Source: Thiomargarita sp.
Lineage (GTDB): Bacteria; Pseudomonadota; Gammaproteobacteria; Beggiatoales; Beggiatoaceae
Length of the DNA stretch: 64,000 bases
Assembly: GCA_020721005.1 (NCBI GenBank)
Contig: DYNP01000002.1
Location: 253,598 to 317,597, forward strand
Direction of reading: 5' to 3'
Part shown: positions 22,399 through 45,500 of the stretch, in pieces
Layout of the letters: every line of letters begins with the position of its first letter
Numbering within the stretch: position 1 is the first letter of the stretch
Translations under genes and position numbers: made by a program
The notes under the pieces: generated by a model
What the model was told of the DNA's origin: nothing
What the model saw: the letters and a program-made list of their open reading frames with translations, nothing else
The model's database searches: none

Positions 22399-22891
22399 TA
22401 TAGTTCCCCTTGATAAATAGACAATTGAAAGTGAGGCGCCAAGCAATGCCTTGGACTCCTGGAGGAGACGCCAAACTTTGTGGCAAAATTTGTTTTGGAG
22501 GGAATTGGGTTTACAAGTACAGTGCTTCCATACTCTGCAAATTCTGATCCAGAGCGATTGTTTTCTGAGGTCTGAATTGGGATTTACAGAATTATGGAAT
22601 TTCCAGCAGATGTAGGATGTGCTGAGCATTTTTTGCGAAGCGCATCCATTGGGGAAGGCAATATTCAAGTAGCCCAGTAGGGTGGGCAACTCATTACTAA
22701 AATAGTTGATAATGGCTAACATTAGTTTTAACATAGTGCATCTAAACTCAAAGGTGTGTTACGTGCGTAAATACGAAAACTGCAAAGCACATGTTGGATG
22801 TTTATTCCAACATGTTGAGAAACTGGTTTCGTCAAGTCTCGCAAGTAACATATTGATTTTTCGCATTCTTAACCATGAATCATCCGAAATC
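22399..22891. other. 493-bp intergenic region left of the NRPS locus
   Basis: It holds a GGATGTGC hairpin (22612-22648) and half of a GTGGGCA repeat (22677-22690). A reading frame continues from 22706 into the scrap at 22892, but it has no ribosome site. No clear promoter for the NRPS genes was identified. Confidence 0.4.
22612..22648. repeat. GGATGTGC/GCGCATCC hairpin repeat
   Basis: TAGGATGTGCT and AGCGCATCCA arms surround an AT-rich loop, related to 18859, 50461 and 63951. Confidence 0.6.
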
Positions 22892-23131
22892 ATGAAAGAA
22901 ACCCTCCTGTCCGAATTCCAGCATATCGTCGTTAACCGTCCCAATTGGGATAGCGATGAGCTTACAGCCTCTCTCTCCTTTCCTGCGTTTTTTATCCTCA
23001 TACCATCGTGCTATGGCTCTATCTTGTTGCGCGTCATGCTGGACCGGCTTTCTGGATTATTTGCCCCGCCGCAAGCAGTGTACCCATCATTGCAAAGTCC
23101 AGTGCAAACTCAAAGTAGGAGGAGAGCGTGA
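22892..23131 (+). pseudogene. scrap resembling a sulfotransferase domain, overlapping the NRPS1 start
   Basis: The frame from ATG 22892 encodes 79 residues. Near its middle, ILLRVMLDRLSGLFAPPQ aligns with TLLRVMLGGHPAIFAPPE of the NRPS1 sulfotransferase domain (10 of 18 identical), and the DNA is also similar (ttgttgcgcgtcatgctgg versus ttgttgcgggtgatgttgg). The PAPS-loop residues PPRSGTT are replaced by PSCYGSI, so it could not bind PAPS. The frame ends with TGA overlapping the GTG of NRPS1 (GTGA), and the NRPS1 ribosome site lies inside it. It is best read as a decayed fragment of a sulfotransferase sequence. A small coupled gene is possible but less likely. Confidence 0.4.
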
Positions 23132-26100
23132 GCAGTTTCGGTAAAATAACATTTCCCCTGACTTCCCCGCAGCGTGAAATCTGGTTTGACCAAATGATGT
23201 ATCCCAGTGTGCCCTTGTATAACATCGGCTCATGGGTTGAAATCAATATCGCCGTTGACAGTGCCTTGTTTCGCCAGGCCGTGCAGTATTTAGCAGCGGG
23301 GCACGATGCCTTGCGCATGGTATTGCAGCCCAATCCTGTATTAGAAGAACCGCCGCTACAAACTTTTCTTGACGAAATCACGGTTCCCCTCCCGTTTCTT
23401 GATTTTTCTACCGAACCAAGCCCGGAACAAGCTGCCGAAGCCTGGATGCAATCCCAGTTTATCCAACCCTTTGCCTTATTAGAGGATAAGCAGCTATTTC
23501 GTTATGCGCTGCTTAAACTGCGCCATGAGCATTTTCGCTTCTTCTCGGTCTATCATCACCTGATCAGTGACGGTCTGGGTATATCCCTGCTGCACAAAAG
23601 GCTGGGCATTATTTACGCCGCCTTGGTAAAAGAAAGACACACGCCATTCCACGCCGAGTGGCAGTTTCCCGCATACCGTGATTTTATCGAGAACGACCAG
23701 AGTTATCGTCATTCCGCGCGCCACAGCGATGATCTCACTTACTGGACAGAAAAATATCCTTCCCTGCCAGAACCCTTATTCCGCTTGCGCCAAACTCACT
23801 CTGCTGGCCGCGTCGTGCCTTCCGAGCGGCAAGTGTTGTGGATAGAGCGGGGGTTTTATCAGCGGATGGCGGACTTTGCCAGCCTATCCAACTCCACCCT
23901 GTTTCATCTCATGCTCGCAGCCCTGTACATCTACTTTGTGCGCACTGCGCGCCGTGAAGAATTGGCCATTGGTTTGCCCATTCTAAATCGCAGTGGCGCA
24001 GCGTTCAAACAAACCGTCGGAGTCTTCATCAACATGATTCCGGCCCGGATCCAGTGCGGAGTTGACCTGAATTTCCGTCAATTACTCCTGGCGATTGGCA
24101 AAACCTTAAAAGCCGATTACCGCCATCAACGCCTGCCCATCGGTGATTTATACCGCGAACTCGGCTTTTATGCCTCTGGCCGGCGCAATCTGATTGAAGT
24201 GCAATTCAACTATGCCAAGCACGACCACGCCACCGAATCCGGCATTTTTCAGGGGCGAACCATTGCGCTCACCAATGACAGCAAACAAAGTCCATTGATC
24301 ATTTCGGTCTGGGAACTCCATCAACAAGCCGATGTACAGGTCGATTTCGTCTACAACCTAGCCTATCTCGATGCCAGTGAAGCGTTGCGCATCCAGTCTT
24401 GCTTCTTGCGGATTTTAGAGCAGGGCTTGGACACCCCGGAGATTCCGCTGCGTTCCATTTCCCTGCTCAGCCCGGCGGAACAAATGCAGCTCATAGCCTG
24501 GAATCCGTGCACAAACACCACGCCAACCACATTGGTTGCCCTATTCGAGGCGCAGGCCGCCAACACCCCCAACAACGTGGCGGTGGTCTGTGAGGTCCAA
24601 TCACTCACCTATGCCGAACTCAACCGGCAGGCCAATCAACTGGCGCATTGCCTGCTTGGTATGGGAAGGGAACGCCTGGTCGGCGTGTGCCTGGAACGCT
24701 CGCTGGACATGGTGATCGGTGTCCTGGCCATTCTCAAAGCCGGCGCGGCCTATGTGCCGCTCGATCCCGACTATCCCAAAGAACGCCTGAGCTTTATCGT
24801 GGAAGACGCGGGACTCCGGGTATTGCTCACCCAAAGCAGCCTGTTGGACGCACTGCCAGCACACGGGACAAGTCTGTTGTGCATAGACAGCGGGCAGTCC
24901 GAAACTTACCCTGCGCACAATCCAGCACTCACCATCCAACCGGACGATCCGGCCTATGTCATTTACACCTCCGGCTCTACCGGCAAGCCCAAGGGCTGCT
25001 TAGTCACCCATGCCAATGTCACCCGTTTGTTCGCGGTCACTGAAGATTTATATCACTTCTCCGCCGATGATGTGTGGACTCTATTCCACTCCTATTCCTT
25101 TGACTTCTCCGTGTGGGAAATCTGGGGCGCATTGCTGTATGGCGGCAAACTGGTGGTGGTGCCTTATCTCACCAGCCGCGATCCGCAAGCCTTTTATCAA
25201 CTCCTTCGCAAGCAACACGTCACAATACTCAACCAAACCCCCTCCGCGTTCCGACAATTGATCAGCGTGGCGACCCAGGCGGAAAAACTGCCCTTGCGCT
25301 ATGTGATTTTCGGCGGCGAAGCCCTGGACTATGCCGCGTTGAGCCCATGGTTCAAGCATTACGGCACGGACAAACCGCGCCTGGTGAATATGTACGGTAT
25401 CACCGAAACCACAGTACACGTCACCTATTGCCCGTTGAGCGGGGATGAAAAGGAAAGCGGCAACATCGGGCGCCCGCTAGCGGATTTGCAGGTGTGGATT
25501 TTGGACGCCCAACAGCAACCGCTGCCCATCGGCGTTGCCGGCGAAATGTACGTTGGCGGCAACGGTGTTAGTCGGGGTTATCTCAATCGCCCCGAATTGA
25601 GCGCGTCGCGATTTCTGGAACTGGAACTGTTCGGCCAACTCCGGCGTGTGTACCGCACCGGTGACTTGGCGCGGCAACACCCCGACGGTAGCCTGGAATA
25701 CTTGGGTCGGATTGATGAGCAAGTCAAAATCCGCGGATTCCGCATCGAGTTGGGCGAAATCGAGACCTGCCTGGCCCAGCATGAGGCGGTGCAAGCGGCG
25801 GTGGTGCAACCGTTTGGCGAAGGAGACAATATCCGCCTAGTGGCCTACCTGACCTTACGCCAGCCAGTAGTGGATGTCGAACACCACTTGCGCGCCTGGC
25901 TGACGGAACGCCTGCCGGATTACATGCTCCCCGGTGCCTTCAGGGTGCTAGAGCAATTCCCCTTGACCGTGAACGGCAAGATAGACCGCAAGGCTTTACC
26001 TGCGCCGGATACTCGATCAAGGACGGATTTTGTCGCGCCGCGAACCGAGGCCGAAAAACTGGTGGCCGACATCTGGCGCACCATTTTGGAGGTCGAGCGC

Positions 26101-29100
26101 ATCGGCATCCATGACGATTTCTTCGCCATTGGCGGCAACTCGCTCAACGGCATTCGCTTTATCAACGAATTGAATGCGCGAACCCAGGAAATTTTCCATA
26201 TTTACGACTTGTTTACCGCGTCCACCCTGAGCCAATTTGTCGCCGGCATGAGAGTCCATTATCCCAAGTTGATGGCACGGTTGGAAGGGACGGAAATCGT
26301 CCCGGCAGCCGTGCTAAACAGGGAACAAGCCGCTGATTTGGCGGATTTGCGGCGGTTATTGATCAAGCCCCGCTTCAAACCCGCCACCGCGCCCAAGAAT
26401 CCGCCTGTAGTCTTCGTGCTGGCACCGCCGCGTTCCGGCACCACTTTGTTGCGGGTGATGTTGGGCGGGCATCCTGCTATTTTTGCCCCGCCGGAACTGG
26501 AATTACTGGGCTTTGCCGATTTGCGCGAACGCGCTGCGCGTTGCCAGGCACGCGACAGTTTTTGGCTGCAAGGCACGGTACGCGCTCTGATGGAACTGCG
26601 CGGCTGCGATGTTGAACACGCCTGGCAAATGATGGCCGAGTTCGAGCAACGCGATTTGGATGTGCAAGCGTTTTACCGTGAACTGCAAGGCACGGCGCAC
26701 GGGCGGTTGCTGGTGGACAAGACCCCGTTTTACTCGGTGGATACGGCAATTCCGTCCCAGGCCGAAGCCTATTTCGACAAACCCCTGTATATTCACCTGC
26801 AACGTCATCCTCTGGGTATGATTCGCTCGTTCGAGAAGGCGCGCATGGAGCGCATTCTGTCCGGGCATCCTTACGCGGCAGCCCTGGCGGATTTGGCCGA
26901 ATCTACTTCGTCCATCAGGCTGGGCGAATTGCTCTGGCAACTCTGCAACCAGAATATTCTGGAGTTCCTCGCCGGCATCCCGCGCGAACGCCAACACGCC
27001 CTGAAATTCGAGGAGTTGGTCGCGCAGCCACGCGCCAGCCTGGAAAAACTCTGCACCTTCCTCAAGCTGCCGCTGCATGAGGATATGCTCAATCCTTATC
27101 AGGACCTGAAGCAGCGCATGACCGACGGCTTATACGCCGAAGGCAAAATGCTGGGCGACCTCAAATTCCATAGCCACGGCAAAATCAATGCTGCGACCGC
27201 CGACAATTGGCGCAGTGCTTACAAAGAAGATTTCCTCGGCCAAGCCACCTGGTCGCTGGCCGAGCGCCTAGGCTATCCCCGCGATGTTCACGGCATTCCC
27301 CGCCTGTCTGAACACCAGCCCAAGCCGCTGTCTTTTGCCCAACAACGGCTGTGGTTTCTCGCTCAGTTGGAAGGCCAAAGCGCGACCTACAACATCCCGC
27401 TCGTGCTGCGCCTGCAAGGCAAGTTAGATGAGCGCGCGCTGCGGCAAGCGTTCATGAGCCTGCTTGAGCGCCATGAAAGCCTGCGCGTCAGCTTCCCAGC
27501 GATAAACGGCCAGGCCACGCTGCGGCTGAATCCCGTCTATGATCCGCTGGTCTCAGTGGAATTGCCCGCGCTGCCCCCAAATGAGCAGCAACCCTGGCTG
27601 GACGAGTGGCTGGTTCAAGAAATCCATCGCCCTTTTGATTTGGCGAATGGCCCCTTGCTGCGCGTGTATTTGCTGACACTCCAGCCGGAAGAACACATTC
27701 TGCTGATTTCCATGCACCACATCATCAGCGACGGCTGGTCCATGGGCGTATTGGTCAAGGAATGGGCGCAGTTATATGGCGCGGCGGCGCAACAGAAAAC
27801 TTTGCATTTACCGGAATTGCCCATTCAGTACAGCGATTACGCAGCCTGGCAAAAAACCTGGCTGGAACAAGGCGCGCTGGCTGCGCAACTGGCTTATTGG
27901 AAAGAGAAACTCGCTGGTCTGCCGGAATTGCTGGAACTGCCCACCGATTTCCCGCGCCCGGCGATGATGCGCCATCAAGGCTACCATTTCAAAAGCCGTA
28001 TCAGCGCCGCCATCGTTGACCAGCTCAAGCGCATCAGCCGCGAGCAGAATGCCACCTTGTTTATGACCCTGCTCGCCGCCTTCAAGGTATTGCTGTACCG
28101 CTACAGCCAGCAAACCGATCTGGCCGTCGGTACGCCCATCGCCAACCGCAACCATCAGCAAACCGAAGGCTTGATTGGCTTGTTTGTGAATACCCTGGTG
28201 TTGCGCAGCCAGATTAACCCGGAACAGGGCTTCGCGGAGGCGTTGCGGCAAGCGCGGGAAACCGCGCTGGAAGCCTATAGCCATCAGGATGTTCCATTTG
28301 AATTGTTGGTAGAACACCTGAACCCGGCCCGCAGCATGAGCCATGCGCCGCTGTTCCAGGTCATGTTCATGCTGCAAGCCATGCAACCAGCCGACTTGCC
28401 TGGCCTGGACATCACCCTGCTAGAGCCGGAGTACAAAGTCGCCAAATTCGACCTGACTCTGACCGCTGCGGAGCAAGACGGCGGACTGCTGTGTACCTGG
28501 GAATATGATACGGATTTGTTCCGCCGCGAAACGATTGCCGCGCTGGCCGAACATTTCGCCGTCTTGCTGCAAAGCATTTGTGCCGACCCGCAGCAGGCAG
28601 TGGCGCATTTGCCGCTGCTTACCCCGGCGGAAATCCAGCAGCTTGCCGCGCCCAAGCAGGTGAGTTATCCAGCGGATCAAACCGTGATCGCCCAGTTTGA
28701 AGCGCGGGCCGCGCAACACCCCGACAAAGTGGCGGTGGTCTTCGCCGAACAGCAATTGACCTATGCCGAACTGAACCGCCGCGCCAACCAACTCGCCCAC
28801 CAATTGATGGTGCTGGGCGTGGGGCCAGAAACCCTGGTGGGCTTGTGCGTGGAGCGTTCCCTGGAGATGCTGATCGGCGTGCTGGGCATCCTCAAAGCCG
28901 GCGGGGCTTACCTGCCGCTCGACCCGGATCAACCGCAAGAGCGTCTGCATTTCATTTTGGAAGACGCGGCAATCCCTATTTTGCTCACCCAATCCCATTT
29001 GCAAGCGCATTTGCCCATCACGGACAAACTCCGAGTCCTGATGCTGGATCAACCGGCGCAATCCCCTGGAATTCACACAAACCCCGTCTTGCGCGCCGGG

Positions 29101-30537
29101 CCGGATAACTTGGCCTACGTGATTTACACGTCCGGCTCTACCGGCAAGCCCAAGGGCTGCCTCGTCACTCATGCCAACATCAGCCGCTTGTTTACCGCCA
29201 CCGACCACTGGTATCACTTTGATCAACACGACACCTGGACCCTGTTTCACTCCTATGCCTTTGATTTCTCGGTGTGGGAAATCTGGGGGGCACTGTTGTA
29301 CGGTGGCAAATTGGTCATCGTGCCTTATCTGACCAGCCGTGACCCGCACGCTTTTTACCAACTCCTGCTGGAGCAACACGTCACCATCCTCAACCAAACG
29401 CCATCGGCTTTCCGGCAACTGATGGGCGTGGATAACCAACCGGAAAAACTGGCCTTGCGCTATGTCATTTTCGGCGGCGAAGCACTGGACAGCACCCTGC
29501 TCAAACCCTGGTTCGCCAAACATCCGGCTCAACCGCGTCTGATCAACATGTATGGCATCACCGAAACCACCGTGCATGTCACTTATTGCCCGCTTGACCC
29601 GCCTCAACTCGGTGGCATCGGCATCCCCATTCCCGATTTACAGGTCTGGATACTGGATAGCCTGCGGCAATCCGTGCCCACCGGTGTGCCCGGCGAGATG
29701 TATGTCAGCGGCGCGGGCGTGGCGCGCGGCTATTTAAACCGCCCGGAATTAACCGCCAGCCGGTTTATCGAAATGGAACAGTTCGGCAGGCGCGATCGCC
29801 TGTACCGTACAGGCGACCTGGCCCGCCGCCTGACCGACGGCAGCCTGGAATACCTGGGGCGGATTGACAACCAGGTCAAATTGCGCGGTTTCCGTATCGA
29901 ACTGGGGGAAATCGAGACGCTGCTGCATCAACATCAGGCGGTGCAAGAAGCGGTGGTATTGCTGGATAATAACGACGGCAATCCCAGGCTGCTGGCCTAT
30001 GTCACCGTTATCAGTCATCAGTTATCAACCAACAGTCAACAGTCAGCAGGTAACAGTGACGGCGCGCAAACTCTGTTCACTGATCACGGTTCACTGATCA
30101 CTACCTTGCGTGATTGGCTCAAAACCCGCCTGCCCGACTACATGGTGCCCACGGGCTTTCATGTGCTGGCGGCTATGCCCCTGACCGGCAACGGCAAAAT
30201 TGACCGCAAGGCACTGGCCGCGCTGGAGGTGCAAACAACCACGTCTGCTGCTTACGCCCCGCTGGAAACCGAACACCAGCAACACATGGCCGACATCTGG
30301 GCTGAACTGCTGCAACTGCCGGTAGCGCGCATCGGCGCGCAAGATAATTTTTTCGATTTGGGCGGACATTCTTTACTTGCCACCCAACTCGTCTCACGCA
30401 TCCGTAGCGTTTTTGGCATAGACCTGCCTTTGCGGCAGGTATTCGAGTCGCCCACTGTGGCGCAATTGTCCCGGCTGATTGCCGGTATGACGCAAGGCCA
30501 GGAAGACGTGGCGGAATTAGAGGAAGGCGTTTTGTGA
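23128..30537 (+). CDS. non-ribosomal peptide synthetase 1: C-A(Thr)-PCP-ST-C-A(Thr)-PCP
   Basis: GTG start behind AGGAGGAG; 2469 residues. Approximate domains: C 5-440 (HHLISDG at 140), A 468-960 (YTSGSTGKPKG near 610), PCP 970-1040 (DDFFAIGGNSLNG), sulfotransferase 1085-1385 (APPRSGTTLL near 1100; RHPLGMIRSF near 1224), C 1395-1830 (HHIISDG near 1531), A 1850-2370, PCP near 2406 (DNFFDLGGHSLLA). Reading the ten-residue code against GrsA gives D-F-W-N-I-G-M-V-H for both A domains, the classical threonine code. The two A domains are very alike (both have KGCLVTHAN), which points to module duplication. There is no loading module, so the first C may be a starter C that takes an external acyl group. 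There is no epimerase. The stop overlaps NRPS2 by 4 bp. Confidence 0.95.
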   Translation: MSSFGKITFPLTSPQREIWFDQMMYPSVPLYNIGSWVEINIAVDSALFRQAVQYLAAGHDALRMVLQPNPVLEEPPLQTFLDEITVPLPFLDFSTEPSPEQAAEAWMQSQFIQPFALLEDKQLFRYALLKLRHEHFRFFSVYHHLISDGLGISLLHKRLGIIYAALVKERHTPFHAEWQFPAYRDFIENDQSYRHSARHSDDLTYWTEKYPSLPEPLFRLRQTHSAGRVVPSERQVLWIERGFYQRMADFASLSNSTLFHLMLAALYIYFVRTARREELAIGLPILNRSGAAFKQTVGVFINMIPARIQCGVDLNFRQLLLAIGKTLKADYRHQRLPIGDLYRELGFYASGRRNLIEVQFNYAKHDHATESGIFQGRTIALTNDSKQSPLIISVWELHQQADVQVDFVYNLAYLDASEALRIQSCFLRILEQGLDTPEIPLRSISLLSPAEQMQLIAWNPCTNTTPTTLVALFEAQAANTPNNVAVVCEVQSLTYAELNRQANQLAHCLLGMGRERLVGVCLERSLDMVIGVLAILKAGAAYVPLDPDYPKERLSFIVEDAGLRVLLTQSSLLDALPAHGTSLLCIDSGQSETYPAHNPALTIQPDDPAYVIYTSGSTGKPKGCLVTHANVTRLFAVTEDLYHFSADDVWTLFHSYSFDFSVWEIWGALLYGGKLVVVPYLTSRDPQAFYQLLRKQHVTILNQTPSAFRQLISVATQAEKLPLRYVIFGGEALDYAALSPWFKHYGTDKPRLVNMYGITETTVHVTYCPLSGDEKESGNIGRPLADLQVWILDAQQQPLPIGVAGEMYVGGNGVSRGYLNRPELSASRFLELELFGQLRRVYRTGDLARQHPDGSLEYLGRIDEQVKIRGFRIELGEIETCLAQHEAVQAAVVQPFGEGDNIRLVAYLTLRQPVVDVEHHLRAWLTERLPDYMLPGAFRVLEQFPLTVNGKIDRKALPAPDTRSRTDFVAPRTEAEKLVADIWRTILEVERIGIHDDFFAIGGNSLNGIRFINELNARTQEIFHIYDLFTASTLSQFVAGMRVHYPKLMARLEGTEIVPAAVLNREQAADLADLRRLLIKPRFKPATAPKNPPVVFVLAPPRSGTTLLRVMLGGHPAIFAPPELELLGFADLRERAARCQARDSFWLQGTVRALMELRGCDVEHAWQMMAEFEQRDLDVQAFYRELQGTAHGRLLVDKTPFYSVDTAIPSQAEAYFDKPLYIHLQRHPLGMIRSFEKARMERILSGHPYAAALADLAESTSSIRLGELLWQLCNQNILEFLAGIPRERQHALKFEELVAQPRASLEKLCTFLKLPLHEDMLNPYQDLKQRMTDGLYAEGKMLGDLKFHSHGKINAATADNWRSAYKEDFLGQATWSLAERLGYPRDVHGIPRLSEHQPKPLSFAQQRLWFLAQLEGQSATYNIPLVLRLQGKLDERALRQAFMSLLERHESLRVSFPAINGQATLRLNPVYDPLVSVELPALPPNEQQPWLDEWLVQEIHRPFDLANGPLLRVYLLTLQPEEHILLISMHHIISDGWSMGVLVKEWAQLYGAAAQQKTLHLPELPIQYSDYAAWQKTWLEQGALAAQLAYWKEKLAGLPELLELPTDFPRPAMMRHQGYHFKSRISAAIVDQLKRISREQNATLFMTLLAAFKVLLYRYSQQTDLAVGTPIANRNHQQTEGLIGLFVNTLVLRSQINPEQGFAEALRQARETALEAYSHQDVPFELLVEHLNPARSMSHAPLFQVMFMLQAMQPADLPGLDITLLEPEYKVAKFDLTLTAAEQDGGLLCTWEYDTDLFRRETIAALAEHFAVLLQSICADPQQAVAHLPLLTPAEIQQLAAPKQVSYPADQTVIAQFEARAAQHPDKVAVVFAEQQLTYAELNRRANQLAHQLMVLGVGPETLVGLCVERSLEMLIGVLGILKAGGAYLPLDPDQPQERLHFILEDAAIPILLTQSHLQAHLPITDKLRVLMLDQPAQSPGIHTNPVLRAGPDNLAYVIYTSGSTGKPKGCLVTHANISRLFTATDHWYHFDQHDTWTLFHSYAFDFSVWEIWGALLYGGKLVIVPYLTSRDPHAFYQLLLEQHVTILNQTPSAFRQLMGVDNQPEKLALRYVIFGGEALDSTLLKPWFAKHPAQPRLINMYGITETTVHVTYCPLDPPQLGGIGIPIPDLQVWILDSLRQSVPTGVPGEMYVSGAGVARGYLNRPELTASRFIEMEQFGRRDRLYRTGDLARRLTDGSLEYLGRIDNQVKLRGFRIELGEIETLLHQHQAVQEAVVLLDNNDGNPRLLAYVTVISHQLSTNSQQSAGNSDGAQTLFTDHGSLITTLRDWLKTRLPDYMVPTGFHVLAAMPLTGNGKIDRKALAALEVQTTTSAAYAPLETEHQQHMADIWAELLQLPVARIGAQDNFFDLGGHSLLATQLVSRIRSVFGIDLPLRQVFESPTVAQLSRLIAGMTQGQEDVAELEEGVL
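26400..27285 (+). other. embedded PAPS-type sulfotransferase domain of NRPS1
   Basis: About 295 residues lie between PCP1 and C2. APPRSGTTLL is the 5'-phosphosulfate-binding loop, and RHPLGMIRSF carries the 3'-phosphate-binding Arg and Ser. Acidic and basic candidates for catalysis are present downstream. It would transfer sulfate from PAPS to a hydroxyl of the PCP1-bound substrate, for which the side chain of the predicted threonine is the obvious candidate. Confidence 0.85.
30008..30108 (+). repeat. repeat-like insertion in the NRPS1 A2 linker
   Basis: Degenerate short repeats (agtcatcagttatcaacc, aacagtcaacagtc, and tcactgat twice) lie in frame between motifs a8 and a9. The encoded stretch (SHQLSTNSQQSAGNSDG..) is low-complexity and absent from the sister A domain at the same place. 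Confidence 0.6.
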
Positions 30538-33500
30538 AATATATCCAAGATTTTCTATTTGAACTCAAACAAAAAAACATCGAACTATGGGCTGAAGACG
30601 GACAATTGCGCTTCAAAGCACCCAAAGGCGCGCTGACCGAGTCGTTACGCGCTGAACTGGGCGCACGTAAAAGTGAAATACTGGAGTTCCTGCACCGCAA
30701 GGCCCTGCTGGAGCAGCCGATTCCCCGGCTGGCCGAGGGTGAAAAGATACCGCTTTCTTTCGCGCAACAGCGTTTACTGTTTTTGGAACAATTGGAAGAA
30801 CAGCGCGCGGTATATAATATGCCGGCGGTGTTCCATTGCGCCGGGCAACTCGATGAAAATGCTCTACAAGCCTCTCTCGCCGCCTTGATTCAACGCCATG
30901 CCAGCCTGCGGACATGCTTTCCCAGTGTAAACGGAGAAGCCACCGCGCAGGTGGGGGAAGTTTACAACCCGCTGCATATCACCGACTTAAGCGCGCTGGA
31001 CGAAGCGGCGCGGCAAGCCGAAGTGGATCGCTTGATTGTCGAACACGCGCAACTCGATTTCGACCTCCAGCACGGCCCTTTATTTGATTTACTTTTGTTG
31101 AAGCGAGGGGAAGGGCAACCGCTTTTGCTGTTCAACATGCACCACATCATCACCGATGGCTGGTCTATCAGCGTCTTCATTCGGGAATGGAAGGCGCTTT
31201 ACAACGCCTATCTCCAGGGGCAGGAAGCCGCTTTACCCGAACTGCCGATTCAGTACGGTGACTATGCCGCCTGGCAACGGCAATGGTTGGCGCAGGGACT
31301 GTTCGCCGGCCAGCTCGAATACTGGAAAAACCAGCTTGCCGGGCTGCCGGATTTGCTGGAATTGCCCACCGATTTCCCGCGCCCGGCGCTGATGGGCACT
31401 GAGGGCAATCACTGCCGCGTGACCATCCCCGCAGAACTGGCGCAAAAAATCAAGCAACTCAGCCGCGATCAAGGCGCAACGCTGTTTATGACCTTGCTCG
31501 CCGCCTTCAATGCGCTGCTATACCGTTACAGCAGACAGGAGGATTTCGCGGTAGGCAGTCCGATTGCCAACCGCACTCATCCGCAGAGCGAAGGGCTGAT
31601 CGGCTTTTTTGTCAATGCGTTGGTGCTACGCGCTCAACTCAGCGCCGGGCAAAGCTTTCTTGAACTGCTCCAGCAAACCCGGCAAACCGCGCTGGATGCC
31701 TACAGCCATCAGGACATTCCCTTCGATTACCTGGTCGAGCAATTGAATCCCACCCGCAATATGCGCCATGCGCCGTTGTTTCAAGTGATGTTTGCGCTGC
31801 AAAACACGCCGCAAGAAGACTTGGAATTGGGCGGTGTGAAACTGGCGTTGCAACAACCCGATTACCACATTGCCAAATTCGATTTATCCCTGAGCGTGAC
31901 GGAGCAGGCGGAGGGCTTACAGTGCGATTGGGAATACCGCGCCGACTTGTTCCGCCCTGAAACCATTACCCGCATGACCGGGCATTTTCAGCGCCTGCTG
32001 GAGGAAATTGCCGCCAATCCGGCGCGGCCAATCTCGCGCCTGCCCTGGCTCACCGAGGCGAATGCGCAACAGCTAACCGCCTGGAATCAAACTCAAATGG
32101 CCTATCCTGCCGCTAAAACGGTGGTGAATTTGTTTGAAGCCCAAGCCGCGCAAAATCCCGGCAAAACCGCGCTGGTGTTTGTCGGCCAACAACTCGGCTA
32201 TGCCGAACTCAACCAACGCGCCAATCAACTTGCCTATCAATTGATAGAACTGGGGGTTGAACCGGACACCTTAGTCGGTATATGCGTCGAGCGTTCGCTG
32301 GACATGATCACCGGCTTGTTGGGAATTCTCAAGGCGGGCGGCGCTTATGTGCCGCTAGACCCGGATTATCCGCAAGAGCGGCTGGCCTTCATGATCGAAG
32401 ATGCCGGCGTGGAAGTGCTGGTCACGCAATCGCACTTGCTGGCGCGGCTGCCTAAACAAACAACAGCGAGCGTTTGCCTTGACCAGGCGGACTTGGACGC
32501 CTATCCGAACACCAACCCGCCGCGTCGCGCCAGCCCCGGACACCTCGCTTACATTATTTACACCTCCGGATCCACCGGCAAGCCCAAAGGCGTGATGATC
32601 GAACACGCGGCCCTGGCTGCCTATGTTCATACAGCCATTGCCACGTATGGGCTGCAAGCCCAAGACCGGGTGTTGCAGTTTTCTTCCATCAATTTCGATG
32701 TCTCGGTGGAAGAGATTTATCCCATCTTGATTCAAGGTGGCTGTCTGGTGGTGCGCGACAACGCCATGTTGAATACGGATAAGGAATTTCTCCAAGCCTG
32801 TGACCGACAAGCGATTAGCGTGATCATGCTGCCCACCGCCTACTGGCAACAGTTGATTCACTCGCAGGGACAGTGGCCAGCCGGACTGCGTACCCTCATC
32901 ATCGGCGGCGAAGCGGCTGCCGTGGAGCAGGTGCGCTATTGGTTGCGCGAGTTGCGCCCGACGGCGCGGCTATTCAATGCCTATGGCCCGACGGAAACCA
33001 CCGTTTCATCCGTGTGTTACCGCTTTGGCAGCGATATAGAGGAGGTTTGCCCGATAGGCCAACCACTGCCAAACCAGCGAGTTTACCTATTGGATGCCCA
33101 ACTCCAGCCGGTGCCACCGGGCGTACCGGGCGAATTGTGCATCGCCGGCACGGGCTTGGCGCGGGGTTATCTCAACCGCCCGGACTTGACCGCCGAAAAA
33201 TTCATTGAACTCGAATTGTTCCGCAAAACCGAGCGTATTTACAAAACCGGCGATTTGGCCCGCTGGCTGCCCGATGGCAATCTGGAATACCTGGGGCGGA
33301 TTGACCAACAGGTCAAACTGCGCGGTTTCCGCATCGAATTGGGCGAAATCGAAGCCGCCTTGAACGCGCATCCGGTGGTGATTGAGTCGGCTGTCGTGTT
33401 GCGCGAACGCGAAGGGGACAAGATCCTTGCTGCGTATGTGACGGCGGCGAGTGAAAAGCAAGCTGCCACTCAGCACTCACCACTCGCCACCACCCTCCGC

Positions 33501-36500
33501 GACTGGCTGAAAACCCGTTTACCGGATTACATGATTCCGGCGAGTTTCACGGTGTTGGACAAACTGCCCCTGACCTCCAACGGCAAGATAGACCGCAAGG
33601 CGCTGCCCGCGCCCGAGATGCAGAGCCGGGATACAACCCGCCTGATCAAGCCCAAAACCGCGTTGGAACAAAAAATTGCCGCTGTGTGGCGAAAGGTTCT
33701 CAAACTGGAACAGGTGGGCATCCAGGATAATTTCTTTGATCTGGGCGGCCATTCCCTGCTGTTGCTTCAGGTGTTGAGCCAGTTGCAGGAGACGCTGAAT
33801 CTATCCCTGCCGCTGGTAACGCTGTTCCAATACCCCACGATACAAAGCCTGGCCGCCCATCTCGCCAGTGACAAGGCCACTGCGCCGATCTTGGGCGCGG
33901 ACACCGCACAGCGCGACAATCCGCCTAACGACCATGCCGATGACATTGCCATCATCGGCATGGCCGGGCGTTTTCCAGGCGCGGCAGACATTGATGCGTT
34001 TTGGGAAAATCTGCGTAACGGTGTCGAATCCATTCAATTCTTTTCGGATGAAGAATTGCTGGCAAGCGGCATCGATCCCCAGGTGTTCAATCATCCACAT
34101 TACGTTCGTGCTGGCGGCGTGATCGAGCAGCCGGAATTTTTCGATGCCGCGTTTTTTGGCTTCCCGCCCAGCGAGGCGGAATTGCTAGACCCGCAACAGC
34201 GCTTGTTTATGGAAACGGCCTGGACCGCGATTGAACACGCCGGCTATGATGTAAACCGTATGCCGTTCGCGGTCGGCATCTTTGCCGGGGCGGGTGCCAG
34301 CTCCTATTTTCTCAATAACTTATGGCCGAACCAGGCATTGCTGGCGCGGTTCGGGCAGCAGCAAGTGCTGATGAGCGGCGACAAGGATTTTCTGGCCGCC
34401 AGGGTAGCCTATAAACTGAATTTGCGCGGCCCAGTGGTCAGTCTCAATACCGCGTGCTCGACCTCGCTGGTGGCGGTACACATGGCGCGGCAGAGTCTGT
34501 TGCAGAACGAATGCCGGATGGCGCTGGCTGGCGGCGTGAGCGTGTTCTTCCCGCACAAACAAGGCTATCTGTATCAGGAAGGCAACATTCTGTCGCCGGA
34601 TGGACATTGTCGTGCCTTCGATGCGGATGCAAAAGGCACAGTGGGCGGCGCAGGCGTGGCGATTGTCGTACTGAAGCGTCTCTGTCACGCCCAGGAAGAT
34701 GGCGATGCCATTCATGCGATAATTAAAGGTTCGGCGATTAACAACGATGGCATGGCCCGCATGGGGTTTACCGCGCCTAGCGTGACCGGTCAGTCACAGG
34801 TCATTCGCGACGCCATGCGCGGGTTGGATTATGAATCCATCAGCTATATTGAAACGCACGGCACTGGCACCTTGTTGGGCGACCCGATTGAAGTCAGCGC
34901 ATTGCAGCAAGCGTATAAAGCGGGCACGAATAAAACCGGTTACTGCGCCTTGGGCGCGGTCAAGACCAACATCGGCCATCTGGATACAGCGGCAGGCGTT
35001 GCTGGTCTGATTAAGGTGGTATTAGCCCTCAAGCACCGTGAAATTCCGCCCACTTTACATTTCAAATCGCCCAATCCACAAATTGACTTCACCAACAGCC
35101 CGTTCTTCGTCAATACCGAACTCAAACCCTGGCAAGCCGACGCGCCCCGGCGGGCCGGGGTCAGTTCCTTCGGTATCGGCGGTACCAATGCCCATCTGGT
35201 GCTGGAAGAGGCGCCGGCGCAGGAATCTTCCGCTTCCCGCGCCTGGCAGTTGCTGTGCCTGTCTGCCAAATCAGATACTGCTTTGCGCCAGTATCGCAGC
35301 GATCTCGCCGACTATCTGGTCTCTCTCCCCGATCTGAAGCTGGCGGATGCCGCCTACACTTGCCACTCTGGGCGCGGCGCGTTTGCGTACCGGGGCTTTG
35401 TCGTGGGCCGCGATGCCAGCGAAATGGCCGCGCAACTGCGCCAAGAAAAATCCAGCCGTTGGCAGCAGGGCCGGGTGGGCGAGCAAGAGGCCAAGGTGGC
35501 ATTCATGTTCCCCGGACAAGGAACGCAATATATCAAAATGACGGAGAATTTGTACCAAAATGAACTGAAATACCGGGTAACGATTGACGAGTGCGCAGAA
35601 TTATTGATCCCTCACCTGCAACTGGACATCAGAGAAGCGTTGTTCAACCCCGATTCGCGGCAGGATATTCACCAAACCACATGGACTCAGCCCGCGTTAT
35701 TCACGGTTGAATATGCCTTAGCGCAGTTGTGGATACAGTGGGGCGTCCAACCGGCGGCATTCATAGGGCATAGTATCGGGGAATATGTTGCGGCTTGCTT
35801 GTCTGGGGTGTTTTCCCTGCAAGATGCGCTGGCTCTGGTCGCCTTCCGAGGGCGGTTAATCCAATCCTTACCGGCGGGAGAGATGCTGGCAGTGCCTCTT
35901 TCCGAACCACAAGCGCAAATGTGGTGTTCGGAGGCGATTTCCCTTGCGGCCATCAACCATCCCAAGCAATGCGTTCTTTCTGGTCTTCCCTCCGCTATTG
36001 CGCAATTGCAAGTCGCCTTGCAAGAGCAAGGAATCGAAAGTAAACGTTTGCAAACTTCTCATGCCTTTCATTCTCATCTGCTGGAACCGGTATTGGCAAC
36101 ATTTTTCGACCGCTTACAGCGAATCCAGTTTCAAAAGCCGAAATTTCCCTATCTATCCAACCTCACCGGTGATTGGATCAACCCGGAAGCGGTCACCCAT
36201 CCCCACTACTGGGTACAACATCTGCGGCATACGGTGCGTTTTGCCGACAATTTGGAGAATCTGTTTGCCAGTGGCGTGGATGTGCTGTTGGAGGTTGGAC
36301 CAGGACACTCTCTTTCTAAGTTGGCGCGCCGATATCCGGCTTACCCCGCCGACTGCATGGCTCTGCAAACGTTGCCGCCCGCCACCGATGTTTTGGAAGA
36401 AATACATCATTTACAGGAAACTGTGGGCCGGTGTTGGCTGCGCGGGATAAATCTCGACTGGCAAGCATTTTATGCGGATGAACAACGCTTGCGCTTGCCG

Positions 36501-39500
36501 CTGCCAACGTATCCATTTGAACGGCAACGCTACTGGATCGAACCCATAGCCAGCAACCCACTAGCTAACGCCAATATGCCAGCGTCCACCCAAGAAACCG
36601 CTGCAACGGTGGATGCTCGCTGCGCTGGGGAAACGGGACTGGTACCTAGCGTCCCCGATGACAACGCACCCAGTACCGAGACCGAACGAAAAGTCGCTGC
36701 AATTTGGCAGTTACTGTTAGGCGTTACACCGGGACGAGACGATGACTTTTTTACGCTGGGCGGAGATTCTTTGCTCAGTGTTCAAGTGTTATCGCGCCTG
36801 CGCGAATCCTTTGAAGTTGAAATTTCGCTCAATCTGCTGTTTGAACGTCCGGCTTTAAAAGACCTCGCCAACTGGCTGGACAGCCACCACGGCGCAGCGC
36901 CCGCCCGCCTGTCGCCGATTTTGCCCCAGCCTGCCGACGCGCCGCTGGTGATGTCGTTCGCCCAGCAACGGCTGCGTTTTCTGGCGCAACTGGAAGGCGA
37001 AAGTGCGACTTACAATCTTCCTGGCGTCGTGCATCTGGCGGGCAGATTGAATGAAAGCGCTCTGCGCAAGGCATTTACCGCGCTGATCCAGCGCCATGAC
37101 AGCCTGCGCCTGTCCTTTCCGGTCATCAACGGGGAAGCGCGTGTATGCAAGGGTGACGTTTATGATCCGGTGGACATTGAGGACATCAGCAAGCTGCCCG
37201 CTGCCGAACAGCAAGAAATCAGCAAAGCTTGGCTGGCTCGCCATGCCCAGACGCCGTTCAATCTGGACAGCGGTCCGCTGTTGCGCTTGAATGTCCTTAG
37301 GCTGAATGCCGAAGAACAGATCGCGCTGATCAATGTGCACCATATTATCAGCGACGGCTGGACTATCGGTCTGTTGATCCACGAGTGGAGCCAGTGTTAC
37401 AACGCCTATGCGCAAAACCGCCAGCCCGATTTGCCCGCGCTGCCGATTCAATACACAGATTATGCCGCTTGGCAACGGCAGTGGTTACAGGGCGAAGTGT
37501 TGGAACGGCAATTGGGCTACTGGAAACAGAAATTGGCCGATGCTCCCGCGTTGCTGGAACTGCCCACCGATTACCCGCGCCCAGCGATCATGCGTTATCA
37601 GGGCAGTTACCTGCGTCTCGCTGTTGATAGCGCATTGACGCAACAGATCAAGCAGTTCAGCCAGGATCAGGGAGTGACGATCTTTATGACCCTGCTGGCC
37701 GCTTTCAAGGTACTGCTGTATCGCTACAGCGGTCAGCAAGACCTGCAGGTCGGTACTCCGATAGCCGGACGAACCCGGCGTGAAACCGAGGGTCTGATTG
37801 GCTTTTTCGTCAATACCCTGGTGTTGCGCAGCGTGATTGCCGGAGAGAAAAGTTTCCTACACTTGTTACAACAAGTGAAACAAACGGAATTGGAAGCGCA
37901 CGAGCATCAAGATATTCCGTTTGAATATCTGGTAGAGAAATTGAATCCGGCGCGCAGCCTGAGCCATTCCCCCTTGTTCCAGGTCATGTTCGCCTTGCAG
38001 AATGCGCCGGAATATGCCTTGCAACTAGACGGTCTGCAAGCGCGTCTGCTGGAATCTGAGGCCAGTACCTCCAAGTTTGACCTGACCCTGAGTATCGAGG
38101 AACGGGGACAAGGTTTTACCTGCCACTGGGAATACAACACCGATCTGTTCCGCACCGCAACCATCGCCCGGATGCACGAGCACTGGCAAGTGCTGTTGCG
38201 TGGCATTCTGGCTGACCCGCGTCGGCAGATTGCCCACTTGCCGCTGTTGACCCCGGAAGAAATCTACCAACTGCAAGCGTGGAACGACACGGCGGTGGAT
38301 TATCCCAAAGATAAAACGATTGTGGATTTGTTTGAGGAGCAAGTTGAACAAACGCCGGATAATATTGCCGTCGTGTTTGAAGGCAAACTTTTAAGCTACC
38401 GGGAATTAAACCAAAAAGCCAACCAGATTGCGTATCATTTGCTCAATCTGAAAAATAATTCTGACCACTCGCCACTTGCCACTAACCCCTTAATCGCCAT
38501 CTGCGTCGAGCGTTCGCTGGAAATGGTAATTGGGCTATTAGGCATACTCAAGTCCGGCGGCGCGTACGTGCCGATAGACCCGAATTACCCAACAACGCGG
38601 ATTGAATACCTATTAAAAGACAGTGCTGCGCCGTTGTTACTGACGCAGAGTCACTTAAAAGCCCAACTGCCGGAATTATCCCAAGATTGCGCGGTGATAT
38701 GCTTAGATGAAACTAAATTCGCCGGACAATCCACGGCAAATCCAGGAGTAAAGTTAAAATCCACTGATTTGGTGTATGTGATTTACACCTCGGGTTCTAC
38801 GGGGATGCCGAAAGGAGTCATGATAGAACACCGTAATGTCATCAATCATCTGCATGGATTTGAACAACAAGCACCTCATGTAAAACCGCTGAGCAGCATT
38901 TTTACCGTGCCATTCAGTTTTGACCTTTCGGTCTGGGAAATTTTTAACCCCCTCTGTTATGGCGGCACATTGCACCTCTTATCCAAAGATAGGCTTCTGG
39001 AAATCGGCGCATTGGCAACTTATTTAACGGATAATCAGATTTCTACCGCGTATCTGCCGCCAGCACTACTGGAATCTGTTGCCAAGCATTTGCAACAGCA
39101 TGGAAATCCTTTGCAACGCTTGCTGGTCGGGGTTGAACCGATTCCTCAGAAAACACTCCAGGCATTCAGGGACATTGCAGACGAACTGTACATTATCAAT
39201 GGCTATGGCCCGACCGAAGCCACAGTCTGCGCAACTTTTTATTCTTTTACCCATGCCACGGACGGAGAACGGCGCACACCGATTGGCCGCCCGCCCGCTA
39301 ATTACCGGATTTATATTTTAGATGCCCAGCACCAACCGCAACCGCTCGGTATTCCCGGTGAACTGTGCATTGCCGGTGCCGGACTGGCGCGTGGTTATCT
39401 CAACCGCCCCGAATTAACTGCTGAGAAGTTTATTGAAATCGAATTATTCGGCCAAACCGAGCGCATCTATAAAACCGGCGACTTGGCGCGCTGGTTGCCG

Positions 39501-42500
39501 GATGGCAATTTGGAATATTTAGGCCGCATTGACCACCAAATCAAACTGCGTGGTTTCCGTATTGAGTTGGGAGAGATTGAAAGCGTGCTGGCGCAGCACG
39601 AAGCGGTCAAAGAAGTCGTGGTCACGCTGTATGAGGCTGATGGGAATAAGCGGCTGGTGGCGTATGTTGTAGAAAGTGGGCAAAATCCATTGCCCATCCT
39701 ACAGTTGCGCGATTGGCTCAAAACCCGCTTGCCCGACTACATGATTCCGGCACATTTCGTGGTGTTGGACAAATTGCCCTTAACTCCGAACGGCAAGATA
39801 GACCGCAAAGCCTTGCCCGCGCCGGAACGTGAAAGTGAGACCGGGGTTTTGCCGCTGACACCCAGCGAAGAGCTGCTGGCCGCATTGTGGAGCGCGGTGC
39901 TTACAGTAGAAACCATTCACCGCCACGCCAATTTCTTTGAATTGGGCGGTCATTCCCTGCTGGCAACCCAACTGGTCTCGCGTGTGCGCGAGGCATTTCA
40001 AACTGAATTGCCGGTACGCCAGTTATTTGAAACGCCAGTGTTGAGCGATTTGGCGGCTTGGCTGGATCAGCAGCAGCGCGGCGAAATTCTGCCGCCTCTG
40101 CAACCCCTGCCGGAGTTCGCGCCCCTGCGTCTTTCCGCCGCTCAGGAGCGGCTCTGGTTTCTTGCCAAATTGGAGGGACCATCCGCCACCTATAACATCC
40201 CAGCGGCGGTCAGATTGCATGGCAAGCTGGATATAGACGCGCTGCGCCAAACCTTTGCGCTGCTGACCGAACGCCATCAAAGCCTGCGCATGTATTTTCC
40301 GGATATTGACGGACAATCCACGCTCAAACTTCTGCCCGCCTATGACTCGCTACAGATCACCGATCTCAGCAGCCTCGCCGAAGATCAACAGGCGGCGGAA
40401 CTGCAAAGCGAGATTCTGCGGCACGGAGCCACCCCCTTTGATTTGGCCACTGGCCCGCTGTTGCGGAATGAGTTGCTGATATTAGGCCCCGGCGAGCATG
40501 TCCTGCTGTTCAACATGCACCACATCATTTCGGATGGCTGGTCTATGGCTATCCTGCTGCGAGAATCGGCGGCAATCTACAAGGCCATCGCGGCGGGACA
40601 GCCCCCAGTTTTGAAACCGCTGACAGCGCAGTATGCCGATTACGCGGCTTGGCAGCGAGCGGTTTTGACCGGTGATACGCTGTTTCGCCGGATTGCCTGG
40701 TGGAAAGAATACCTGGCTGGCATACTGCCCCTGCTGGAGTTGCCGACTGATCATCCGCGTCCAGCAAAGCAGAGTTTCCAGGGCGCTACCCTGCAAAGCG
40801 GGATTGGGACGGAGTTGACCCGGCGGCTCCAGGAATTGGCGCAACAGCAGGGCTGTACCCTGTTCATGACCTTGCTGGCCGCCTTCAGCGTCCTGTTGCA
40901 GCGCCACAGCGGCCAGAGCGACATCGTGATCGGCAGCCCGATTGCCAACCGCGCCCACAGCCAGACGGAAGACATCATCGGCTTTTTCGTCAATGTGCTG
41001 GCATTGCGTACCAGAATCGATCCAGAACAGTCCTTTACCGGGCTTCTGCGCCAGACCCGGCATAGCTGTCTGGGTGCTTATGCCCACCAGGACACGCCCT
41101 TCGAGACGCTGGTGGAGCAACTGCAACCCACGCGCAGTCTCGGCCACAGTCCGCTATTCCAAGTCATGCTTGCGCTGCAAAACAATGCCAGCGAAGCATT
41201 TGAACTGTCCGGACTGACAGTGACGCCCCTGCCGGTTGATTACCCGATGGCCAAGTTCGACTTGACCCTCACTGTCGAAGAAAAAGGCGGCCAACTCCAG
41301 TGCCACTGGGAATACGCCACCGATTTGTTCCAAGCCGAGACTATCGAGCGCATGGCCGGCCATTTTGCAGTCCTGCTCCGCGGCATCGTGGACAATCCGG
41401 GGCAGTCCATTGGCCGCCTGCCGTTGCTTACCGAGGCAGAACTCCAGCAATTGGCGGCCTGGAATGACACTAAGGCCGACTTCCCCAGCGATCAAACTCT
41501 GGTCAGCCTGTTTGAAGCCAGTGTCAATGCCACTCCAGACGGCATCGCCGTGGTATTCGAGGGCCAGTCCCTTACCTACCGGCAACTTAACGAACGGGTG
41601 AACCGGCTTGCCCACCACCTGCGCGAACTGTCCGCCATCAGCCAGCCCAGGCGCGCCGCCGACAATCTGATTGCCCTCTGCGTCAAGCGTTCTCTGGATA
41701 TGGTCGTTGGCCTGTTGGCCATCCTCAAGGCTGGCGGGGCTTATGTACCGATGGCCGACGATTGGCCGCTGGAACGGATGAAATACATCTTATCCACGCA
41801 AAAGATTCGGCATGTGCTCACCCAATACGAATTTCTGCCCGGCCTGCAAACCTTGCAGTGGGAGTTGCCGGAACTGAAGAATATCGTTTGCCTGGATATA
41901 GAAACCGCCGATATCCCCCTGGAAGCAATGGACACCGGCATTGTTCAATCCTTGTGGGACAGTGTCGCCGAACGCGCCGTTGACGACAGCAGTGCCGCCG
42001 GTTTCATCAGCAGTTACACCGGCGAGACATTCAGCGCCACCCAGATCGATGAGTACTCGCAGGGTATCTTGCAACATGTCAGTCCTTACCTGAAGCCGGA
42101 TGCCCGCCTGCTGGAAATCGGCTGCGGTTCGGGTTTGCTGATGTTTGCTATCGCCCCTAACGTGGGTCTCTATGTCGGTCTCGATCCGTCCGGGCTGACA
42201 CAGCAACGTAATCGTGCGCGTGTGCTTGAGCATGGCCATGCCAACATCGAGTTGATCACCGGGTTCGCCCATGAATTGGAGCGCATCCCGCAAGGCCCGT
42301 TCGATCTGATCCTGATGGCCAGTACCACGCAGTTTTTCCCAGGCTACCGCTATTTGCGGGCGACGCTGGCGGCAGCGTTGGACAAATTGGCGCCGGGTGG
42401 CGTGCTGGTCATTGCTGACGTCATGGATCCCCGGCAGAAAGACGCCTTCCGGCAGTCCCTGGATGATTTCAAAAAAGCCCTGCCCGCCGGCCAGACAGCC

Positions 42501-45500
42501 AGAATCAAGACCTCGTTGGACAGCGAGTTCTACATTGATGAAAACTTCTTCCAAGCGCTGCCGTTGATGCAGAATTCGGTGGCTGAGGTTTCGGTGATCA
42601 AGCGAGAAAGCGGATACACCAGTGAATTGCGTTATCGCTATGACGTTCTGGTGCAAAAGAAAACAAACGAAGTTGTGCCAACGAGTCAAGTAGCCGAACT
42701 ACCCAAGCAGGTTTGGACCAACTGGCATGTCAGCCAGCGGCCAGTGGAAAATCCGGCCCCGGTACTGACGCCGGACGACTTGGCCTACATCATCTACACC
42801 TCTGGCTCCACTGGTACGCCTAAGGGCGTGGAAATGCGCCACCAACCAGTCGTTAATCTGATCGACTGGGTCAACAAGACCTTTAATGTGAGTTGCAATG
42901 ACCGGCTGTTATTCGTTACGTCTTATTGTTTCGATCTATCGGTTTACGACGTGTTCGGTATCTTGGCCTGCGGTGGCTCGGTGCATATTGCTTCCAAAAC
43001 AGCGCTGCGGGAACCCCAGCGGCTGCTGCGGTTGCTCAGCGACGAGCGCATCACCTTCTGGGATTCCGCCCCGGCGGCGCTCCAACAGTTAGTAGCCTAT
43101 CAGGGAAATACTCCTATTCCGAGCAATGACTTGCGTCTGGTCTTCCTCAGCGGCGACTGGATACCGGTGAGCCTGCCGGACACCATCCGTGCGATCTACC
43201 CGAACGCCAAGGTGATCGGCCTGGGAGGCGCCACCGAGGCGGCAATCTGGTCTAATTATTATCCGATTGGCGAGGTTGATCCAAACTGGAACAGCATCCC
43301 CTACGGCAAGCCGATCCAGAACGCCCGCTATTACGTCCTCGACAGCCAACTTAATCAATGCCCTATAGGCGTACCAGGTTTCCTGTACATCGGCGGCGAC
43401 TGTCTGGCATCAGGCTACGCCAACGAGCCTGAGCAGACCGCGACCAAGTTCATCCCGTCGCCGTTCAGTGAAGAACCCGGTGCGCGTATCTACTATACCG
43501 GTGACTTGGCACGTTGGATGCCCGACGGCAACATGGAATTTTTGGGACGCATCGATAATCAGGTCAAGCTGCGCGGCTTCCGCATCGAGTTGGGGGAAAT
43601 CGAAACCGTTCTGACCCGGCACGACGCGGTCAAGGAGGCCATCGTCACGGTGCATCAACGCGAGGGTGAGAAGTCTCTAGTGGCCTATCTCCTAAAAGAG
43701 GAGTATGTCACCGATCAAGCCGCCTTGTTCGGCGAACTTCAGCTACATCTCAAAATTCAGCTGCCGGAGTACATGATCCCGGCTCACTTCATGGTTGTGG
43801 AGCATATCCCCTTGACCTCCAACGGCAAGGTTGACCGCAACTCGCTGCCGGCACCGGAGGCGATCCAGTCGGTTGGTGGGCAAGTGCCCGCCAACCCAAC
43901 CGAGGAATTGTTAGCCGCCATATGGGCGGATGTGCTCAAACGTGACGCCATCTACCGCGATGACCATTTCTTTGAACTCGGCGGCCACTCCTTGCTCGCC
44001 GCTCAGCTTGTCTCCCGTATCCGCGATGGTTTCAAAATCGAACTGCCGGTGCGGACGATCTTTGAATCGCCGCGCTTGTCGCAACTGGCGGCAGACATCC
44101 AAGCCGTCCGTCGCGAAGTGGATATGCCGTCCATCCTCCGGCAGGCCGTTGACGCACCCAAGGTATTGTCCTTCGCCCAACAACGCCTATGGTTCCTGGC
44201 GCATCTGGAAGGCCAGAATGCCGCGTATAACATGCCGTTTGCCCTGAAACTGCATGGACAATTAGCGGCAGCAGCTTTACATCAGGCCACCACGGCCTTG
44301 ATCCAGCGGCATGAGTGCCTGCGTCTGTGCTTCCTGGAAGTGGATGGCATCGGCACGGTAGAGCGCATTGCGTCCTACGATCCGTTCAACGTCATTGATC
44401 TCTCGGCTTTGTCGGATGCGGAGCGGGCACGCCAGGTCAATGACCAACTGGCGCGGCATGGCAAGGATGCCTTTGACCTCACCAGCGGCCCCTTGTTCAG
44501 CCTGCATTTGCTGCGCTTGGGCGAACAGGAACATGTGCTATTGTGCAACATGCACCACATCATCAGCGATGGCTGGTCTATGGGGGTCATGGTGCGGGAC
44601 TGGAGCGAACTTTACCGCGCCGCCACCGAACAACGGGAGCCGGTGCTGCCGGAATTGTCTATTCAGTACACCGACTATGCTGCTTGGCAAAAGGACTGGT
44701 TGCGCGGCGAGACCCTGAAAGCTCAGTTGTCTTACTGGCGCGACAAACTGACCGGCGCGCCGGAATTGCTGGATTTACCCACTGATTTTCCGCGCCCAGC
44801 GGTCAAGACCTATCAAGGCCAGCATCTGCAATCCACTCTGCCCGTTGATTTGGTAGACGACATCAAGCGCGTAAGCCACGAGCATGGCGCAACTGTGTTC
44901 ATGGGCTTGTTGTCGGCTTTCAACGTCTTGCTGTATCGCTACAGCCGGCAAACCGACGTGCTGGTTGGCAGCCCGATTGCCAATCGCACCCAACGGCAGA
45001 CCGAAGACTTGATTGGCTTTTTCGTCAATACCCTGGTGTTGCGCAGCCAACTCGACAGTCAGCAGACCTTTGTAGAACTGCTCCAGCAAGTTCGGCAAAC
45101 TGCGCTGGGGGCTTACAGCCATCAGGATATTCCGTTTGAGTTCCTGGTCGAGCAACTCAATCCGGCGCGCAGTACCAGCTATTCACCCCTGTTCCAGGTG
45201 ATGTTCATTCTGCAAAACACGCCGATGGAAGCCCTGGCATTCGGTGACATCAAAGTCGAAATTCTGGAGCCTGAACTGACCACCGCCAAGTTCGATTTGA
45301 CCCTGAGCATGACCGAAGTGGGTGGCGGCTTCATCTGCGATTGGGAATATTCCACCGACCTGTTCGAGGCGGATACCATCCTGCGCATGGCCGGGCATTT
45401 TGAAACCCTGCTGCGGGAACTGATGCGTGTCCCGGAACAAGCGGTGAGCGCTTTCTCCTTGCTGTCGCCGGCGGAAGCCGGGGAATTGCAGCGGTGGAAC

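Follow-up and report, generated by a model that had tools for sequence, protein, structure and literature searches.

A putative carrier-sulfotransferase cassette behind a threonine module of a Thiomargarita nonribosomal peptide synthetase

Background

What is a sulfotransferase (ST) doing in the middle of a nonribosomal peptide synthetase (NRPS), between a carrier and the next condensation (C) domain? The question is raised by NRPS1 of Thiomargarita sp. (family Beggiatoaceae), encoded in the 64,000-nucleotide stretch of DNA analyzed here (hereafter: the window), whose preliminary description took the polyketide synthase (PKS) CurM as the nearest precedent and considered two fates for the sulfate, retention in the product or departure as a leaving group. 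However, STs acting in cis within NRPSs had already been found in OciA, the cyanopeptolin synthetase from Planktothrix (PMC2533009), and in DysB, the dysinosin synthetase (PMC6520454). Their substrate is glyceric acid, and systems of these two types give products in which the sulfate is kept on that unit (PMC2533009, PMC6520454). The residue that SulN from sulfazecin biosynthesis (PMC11298585) sulfonates is likewise bound to an NRPS carrier, as we propose for the ST in the window, but SulN is free-standing and acts in trans, on an amine, before closure of the beta-lactam ring.

Results and discussion

Architecture of the assembly line

The features of the locus are collected in Table 1. NRPS1 starts with a GTG codon preceded by AGGAGG, and overlaps by 4 bases with NRPS2, which carries the line on to a thioesterase (TE) of the PF00975 family. 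The two adenylation (A) domains of NRPS1 are 64% identical and have the same specificity code, but only the module of A1 is followed by the ST.

Table 1. Coordinates of NRPS1, its domains and the adjacent features in the window
Feature	Position	Strand	Description
ST fragment	22889..23074	+	Remnant of the N-terminal part of a second, degraded ST, immediately upstream of NRPS1
NRPS1	23128..30537	+	2469 aa (P0001), single open frame, C-A(Thr)-PCP-ST-C-A(Thr)-PCP
C1	23149..24492	+	First condensation domain, motif HHLISDG
A1	24544..26007	+	Adenylation domain, code DFWNIGMVHK (Thr)
PCP1	26062..26250	+	Carrier, predicted ST-adjacent subtype, FFAIGGNSLNG, S1005 = attachment serine
ST	26395..27282	+	Predicted PAPS-dependent sulfotransferase domain (PF13469), residues 1090-1385
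C2	27325..28644	+	Ordinary condensation domain, HHIISDG, would receive the chain from PCP1
A2	28696..30219	+	Adenylation domain, code DFWNIGMVHK (Thr)
PCP2	30286..30480	+	Carrier, predicted ordinary subtype
NRPS2	30534..49379	+	6281 aa, TubC docking domain, C-A-PCP-KS-AT-carrier-C-A-PCP-C-A(MT)-PCP-C-A(Gly, MT)-PCP-TE

In the tree of C domains, C1 falls into a divergent clade together with C domains of two related loci, L023 and L029, and by its position there it may be starter-like, i.e. accept an acyl starter. The ST fragment upstream of NRPS1 aligns over 62 residues with the N-terminal ST of L029 at 61% identity (E 1e-17); its P-loop is ruined (PPRSGS changed to PSCYGS). Since this fragment matches L029 and C1 groups with the C domain of the same locus, the 5' end of NRPS1 may derive from a deletion.

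Two A domains of NRPS2 contain methyltransferase (MT) insertions. The third has an early insertion, between motifs A2 and A3 (41928-42677, + strand), and a Cys-like code (DLYDFSLIWK); it resembles what we take to be the TioN-type S-methyl-Cys modules. The last one has a late insertion (46899-47588, + strand) and the Gly code DILQLGVIWK, a combination that suggests that the line ends with N-methyl-Gly.

The sulfotransferase domain and its PAPS site

The preliminary description placed a complete PAPS-type ST at 26400-27285, nearly the boundaries given in Table 1, and quoted its two loops correctly: APPRSGTTLL spans residues 1099-1108 and RHPLGMIRSF residues 1226-1235. The identification withstood both profile and structural comparisons. 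In Pfam, the domain passes the cut-offs of both PF13469 (Sulfotransfer_3, E 1.3e-23) and PF00685 (E 2.7e-8), and its closest solved structures are the STs of CurM (4gbm, E 1.8e-56) and of the olefin synthase OLS (4gox, E 3.5e-51). An AlphaFold2 model (pLDDT 85.6) retains the same fold according to Foldseek, with TM-scores of 0.85/0.92 to 4gbm and 0.84/0.93 to 4gox. The preliminary description had also considered that PAPS-binding residues might be lost; the loops for the 5'- and the 3'-phosphate are both intact. Residues R1102, G1104, R1226, S1234 and D1344 are invariant in all 95 aligned STs, H1350 agrees with CurM and OLS, S1103 and T1106 agree with the majority, and the domain deviates at just three strongly conserved positions, all outside the PAPS loops. 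Given the domain order, the profile and structure matches, the superposition of the model and the invariant residues, we regard the ST as real, complete, correctly placed and, as far as sequence and model can tell, probably functional. The host genome encodes an APS kinase (E 1e-68), which presumably serves the production of PAPS.

The threonine module and the codes that precede STs

A1 and A2 both read DFWNIGMVHK, which we take to be a Thr code, in agreement with the earlier assignment of the module before the ST. The same string is given as the code of OciA-A2 (PMC2533009).

Relatives were collected from one genome per species; 337 candidates encoded a relative, and 79 loci were kept, chosen by similarity to the query, which biases all counts that follow. 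Ser/Thr codes are found in 33 of the 72 A domains that precede an ST versus 8 of the 82 A domains at other positions of these loci (Fisher's test, p=3e-7, a value that takes no account of shared ancestry), and four further ST-preceding A domains have Tyr-like codes, DAST(I/V)AAV. On the other hand, about half of the A domains before STs in the relatives are of other types (Cys-, Asp-, Orn/Dab- or Ile-like, or unclear), so that strict specificity of the family for Ser/Thr had to be rejected, and its members may also sulfate other groups, including amines. On the Agrobacterium vitis plasmid pRvVAT039a (L112, 4946-13704), a gene for A-PCP-ST-TE with the code DAEVVGAVAK adjoins cysD, cysN and ectB (diaminobutyrate transaminase); this clustering of PAPS supply and diaminobutyrate formation with the cassette suggests that amines, too, may be sulfonated.

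The carrier in front of the ST belongs to a distinct subtype

Among the 93 STs surveyed, 86 lie directly behind a carrier; the domain that follows is C in 53 cases, TE in 9, KS in 5, and none in 19. NRPSs with the order PCP-ST-C, for which the preliminary description had proposed a search, are thus found in many phyla. At least 13 named phyla contribute ST-adjacent carriers, e.g. Pseudomonadota (16), Acidobacteriota (13), Chloroflexota (11) and Bacteroidota (11).

These carriers resemble each other more than they resemble the rest: the nearest PCP from another locus is itself ST-adjacent for 85 of the 86 ST-adjacent carriers, versus 2 of 122 others, and the pattern is kept if matches are limited to at most 50% identity (84/86 versus 4/122). 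Carrier profiles trained without the window labelled 23 of 23 left-out carriers correctly, among them PCP1, assigned to the ST type, and the other six carriers of the window, assigned to the ordinary type. The discriminating positions surround the attachment serine and span helix II to the following loop (P0001 1004-1031). We conclude, at the level of sequence, that ST-adjacent carriers form a distinct subtype, and since they do, PCP-ST behaves as a two-domain cassette, in which the ST would recognize its own carrier and which would travel as a unit.

Two arrangements recur among the relatives. An NRPS of about 2800-3150 aa with the order C-A(Thr)-PCP-ST-C-A-PCP-TE (L037, L039, L041, L042, L044, L046, L047, L059, L061) is found in Pseudomonadota, Bacteroidota, Balneolota and Thermodesulfobacteriota, and judged by its architecture it represents a conserved family of gene clusters in which the ST is built in. 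Proteins that read Ligase-PCP-ST and measure about 950-1040 aa (L081, L087, L095, L104, L070) possess an unusual adenylation domain; in L081, the one of these five that was tested, it resembles acyl-CoA/acyl-AMP ligases more than A domains for amino acids.

Relationship to the known systems

In the ST tree, a branch with 100/88 support separates CurM and OLS from a large group of NRPS STs. The ST from the window belongs to this group, where it clusters (100/100) with STs of Anammoxibacter that follow Thr and Ser modules and with one of Thiotrichaceae that follows Ser. CurM is therefore not the closest precedent. The ST fold, the PAPS site and the embedding behind a carrier are common to the window and to the ACP-ST-TE arrangement of CurM (curacin) and of the olefin synthase, but there the substrate is a PKS beta-hydroxyacyl chain and a decarboxylating TE follows. 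A terminal ACP-ST-TE module of this type is absent from the line in the window, where a C domain follows the ST and the sole TE is the PF00975 member at the end of NRPS2.

As a stand-in for OciA we used L126 (FkbH-PCP-ST-C-A(Thr)-PCP), chosen on the basis of its FkbH domain and of the codes DFWNIGMVHK and DVENAGVVTK; the DysB type is represented by L038. Both are cyanobacterial loci. The ST from the window is 52% identical to that of L126 and 53% identical to that of L038, versus 37-38% to CurM-type STs, and both loci share with the window the carrier-ST-C order and the carrier subtype, in addition to the cis location of the ST. They differ in what is loaded: in OciA the line begins with a carrier that receives glyceric acid, and in the DysB type FkbH and a methyltransferase make methylated glyceric acid, so that the unit to be sulfated is loaded without an A domain. 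FkbH was detected in L038 and L126, the loci checked for it; in the window the ST is preceded instead by a full C-A(Thr)-PCP module. Based on the shared order, carrier subtype and sequence identity, we propose that the ST would work as in the OciA and DysB types, but on a Thr module and without FkbH. A cis ST behind an ordinary Thr module rather than a glyceric-acid loader is new. Also new, and seen at the sequence level, are the ST-adjacent carrier subtype and the carrier-ST order across many phyla with its excess of Ser/Thr codes, the carrier subtype being the most general result of this work. A literature search among open-licence papers for O-sulfo-Thr or O-sulfo-Ser peptides of NRPS origin returned nothing relevant.

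Is the sulfate retained or eliminated?

We consider it rather probable that PCP1 and the ST constitute a two-domain sulfation cassette, that the first Thr is O-sulfated on PCP1, and that the sulfate is retained in the product. According to this scenario, A1 would load L-Thr onto PCP1 and C1 would presumably acylate its amine; the ST would dock on its dedicated carrier and move the sulfate from PAPS to the beta-hydroxyl of Thr, whereupon C2 would condense the second Thr with the O-sulfo-threonyl unit. The finished lipo- or acyl-peptide would still carry the sulfate, as oscillapeptin/cyanopeptolin and dysinosin do. That a cis ST acts on a Thr-loaded carrier, as the preliminary description had suggested, is supported by the intact catalytic residues, the Thr code, the enrichment of Ser/Thr codes, the dedicated PCP subtype and the APS kinase.

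Several points speak for retention: in the related systems the sulfate stays in the product, C2 is ordinary, and the line has neither an eliminase-like domain after the ST nor a CurM-like TE. The other fate envisaged earlier, in which sulfate serves as a leaving group, is in our opinion unlikely. O-sulfo-Thr, on PCP1 or after condensation, would then give dehydrobutyrine, or the sulfate would be displaced by a nucleophile with formation of a ring (oxazoline or beta-lactam). Such activation is known from CurM and the olefin synthase, whose STs are homologous to the one studied here, and in several relatives (L021, L023, L051, L062, L080) the ST immediately precedes a TE. Elimination is chemically easy next to a thioester, owing to the alpha-proton; as O-sulfated Thr bound in this way could lose its sulfate even spontaneously, this route to dehydrobutyrine keeps some plausibility. 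Against it, C2 nests among ordinary C domains from its own line, those that follow plain PCPs of unmodified modules, and the Anammoxibacter C domains that follow an ST are near neighbours of those that follow a PCP; a special post-ST C domain as a sign of dehydration was rejected, as the tree has no post-ST clade near the window (the comparison, an indirect one, covered C domains of the window line and of its relatives). The motif of C2, HHIISDG, is not preceded by a third His, whereas HHHxxxDG is, we assume, the mark of the beta-lactam-forming C domain of NocB. A CurM-like decarboxylating TE in the ST-TE relatives was likewise rejected, as the tested TEs, like that of NRPS2, match PF00975 best. 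Besides, no eliminase-like domain is found between the ST and C2, and NRPS STs with a known product class retain the sulfate.

It is distinctly improbable that the ST is catalytically dead or that the sulfate goes elsewhere (for instance to an amine, to the acyl chain or to a residue further along). The broken second ST just upstream demonstrates that STs are lost in this very locus, and Dab/Orn-like codes in the relatives suggest amines as possible substrates; nonetheless, the embedded domain preserves every residue conserved in 95/95 STs, its three deviations lying away from the PAPS loops, and PCP1 is of the specialized subtype, as expected if the ST acts on it. An assembly or domain-shuffling artefact without function, conceivable in a draft genome of 133 contigs, can practically be dismissed, since the open frame of NRPS1 is unbroken within a contig of 379 kb and the idea is refuted by the recurrence of PCP-ST-C, seen for 53 of the 93 STs surveyed, across many phyla.

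Conclusions

Thus far, in the literature searched, sulfation inside an NRPS had been described for glyceric acid in cyanobacteria only. The presence of the carrier-ST cassette on ordinary amino-acid modules would make sulfated residues predictable from genomes of many phyla, with the carrier alone sufficing to recognize the cassette. It is tempting, albeit speculative, to regard PCP-ST as a mobile cassette that has a carrier subtype of its own, occurs in a dozen or more phyla behind Ser, Thr, Tyr and other modules and points to a large, as yet unrecorded class of sulfated nonribosomal peptides; some lines, including that in the window, would then use the sulfate as a leaving group for on-line dehydration of Thr/Ser or for ring closure. 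Whether the sulfate is retained or eliminated is a question that can be tested directly on a single PCP-ST didomain. Sulfated peptides include potent protease inhibitors, and PCP-ST may offer a transferable pair of domains with which sulfation could be engineered at a residue of choice.
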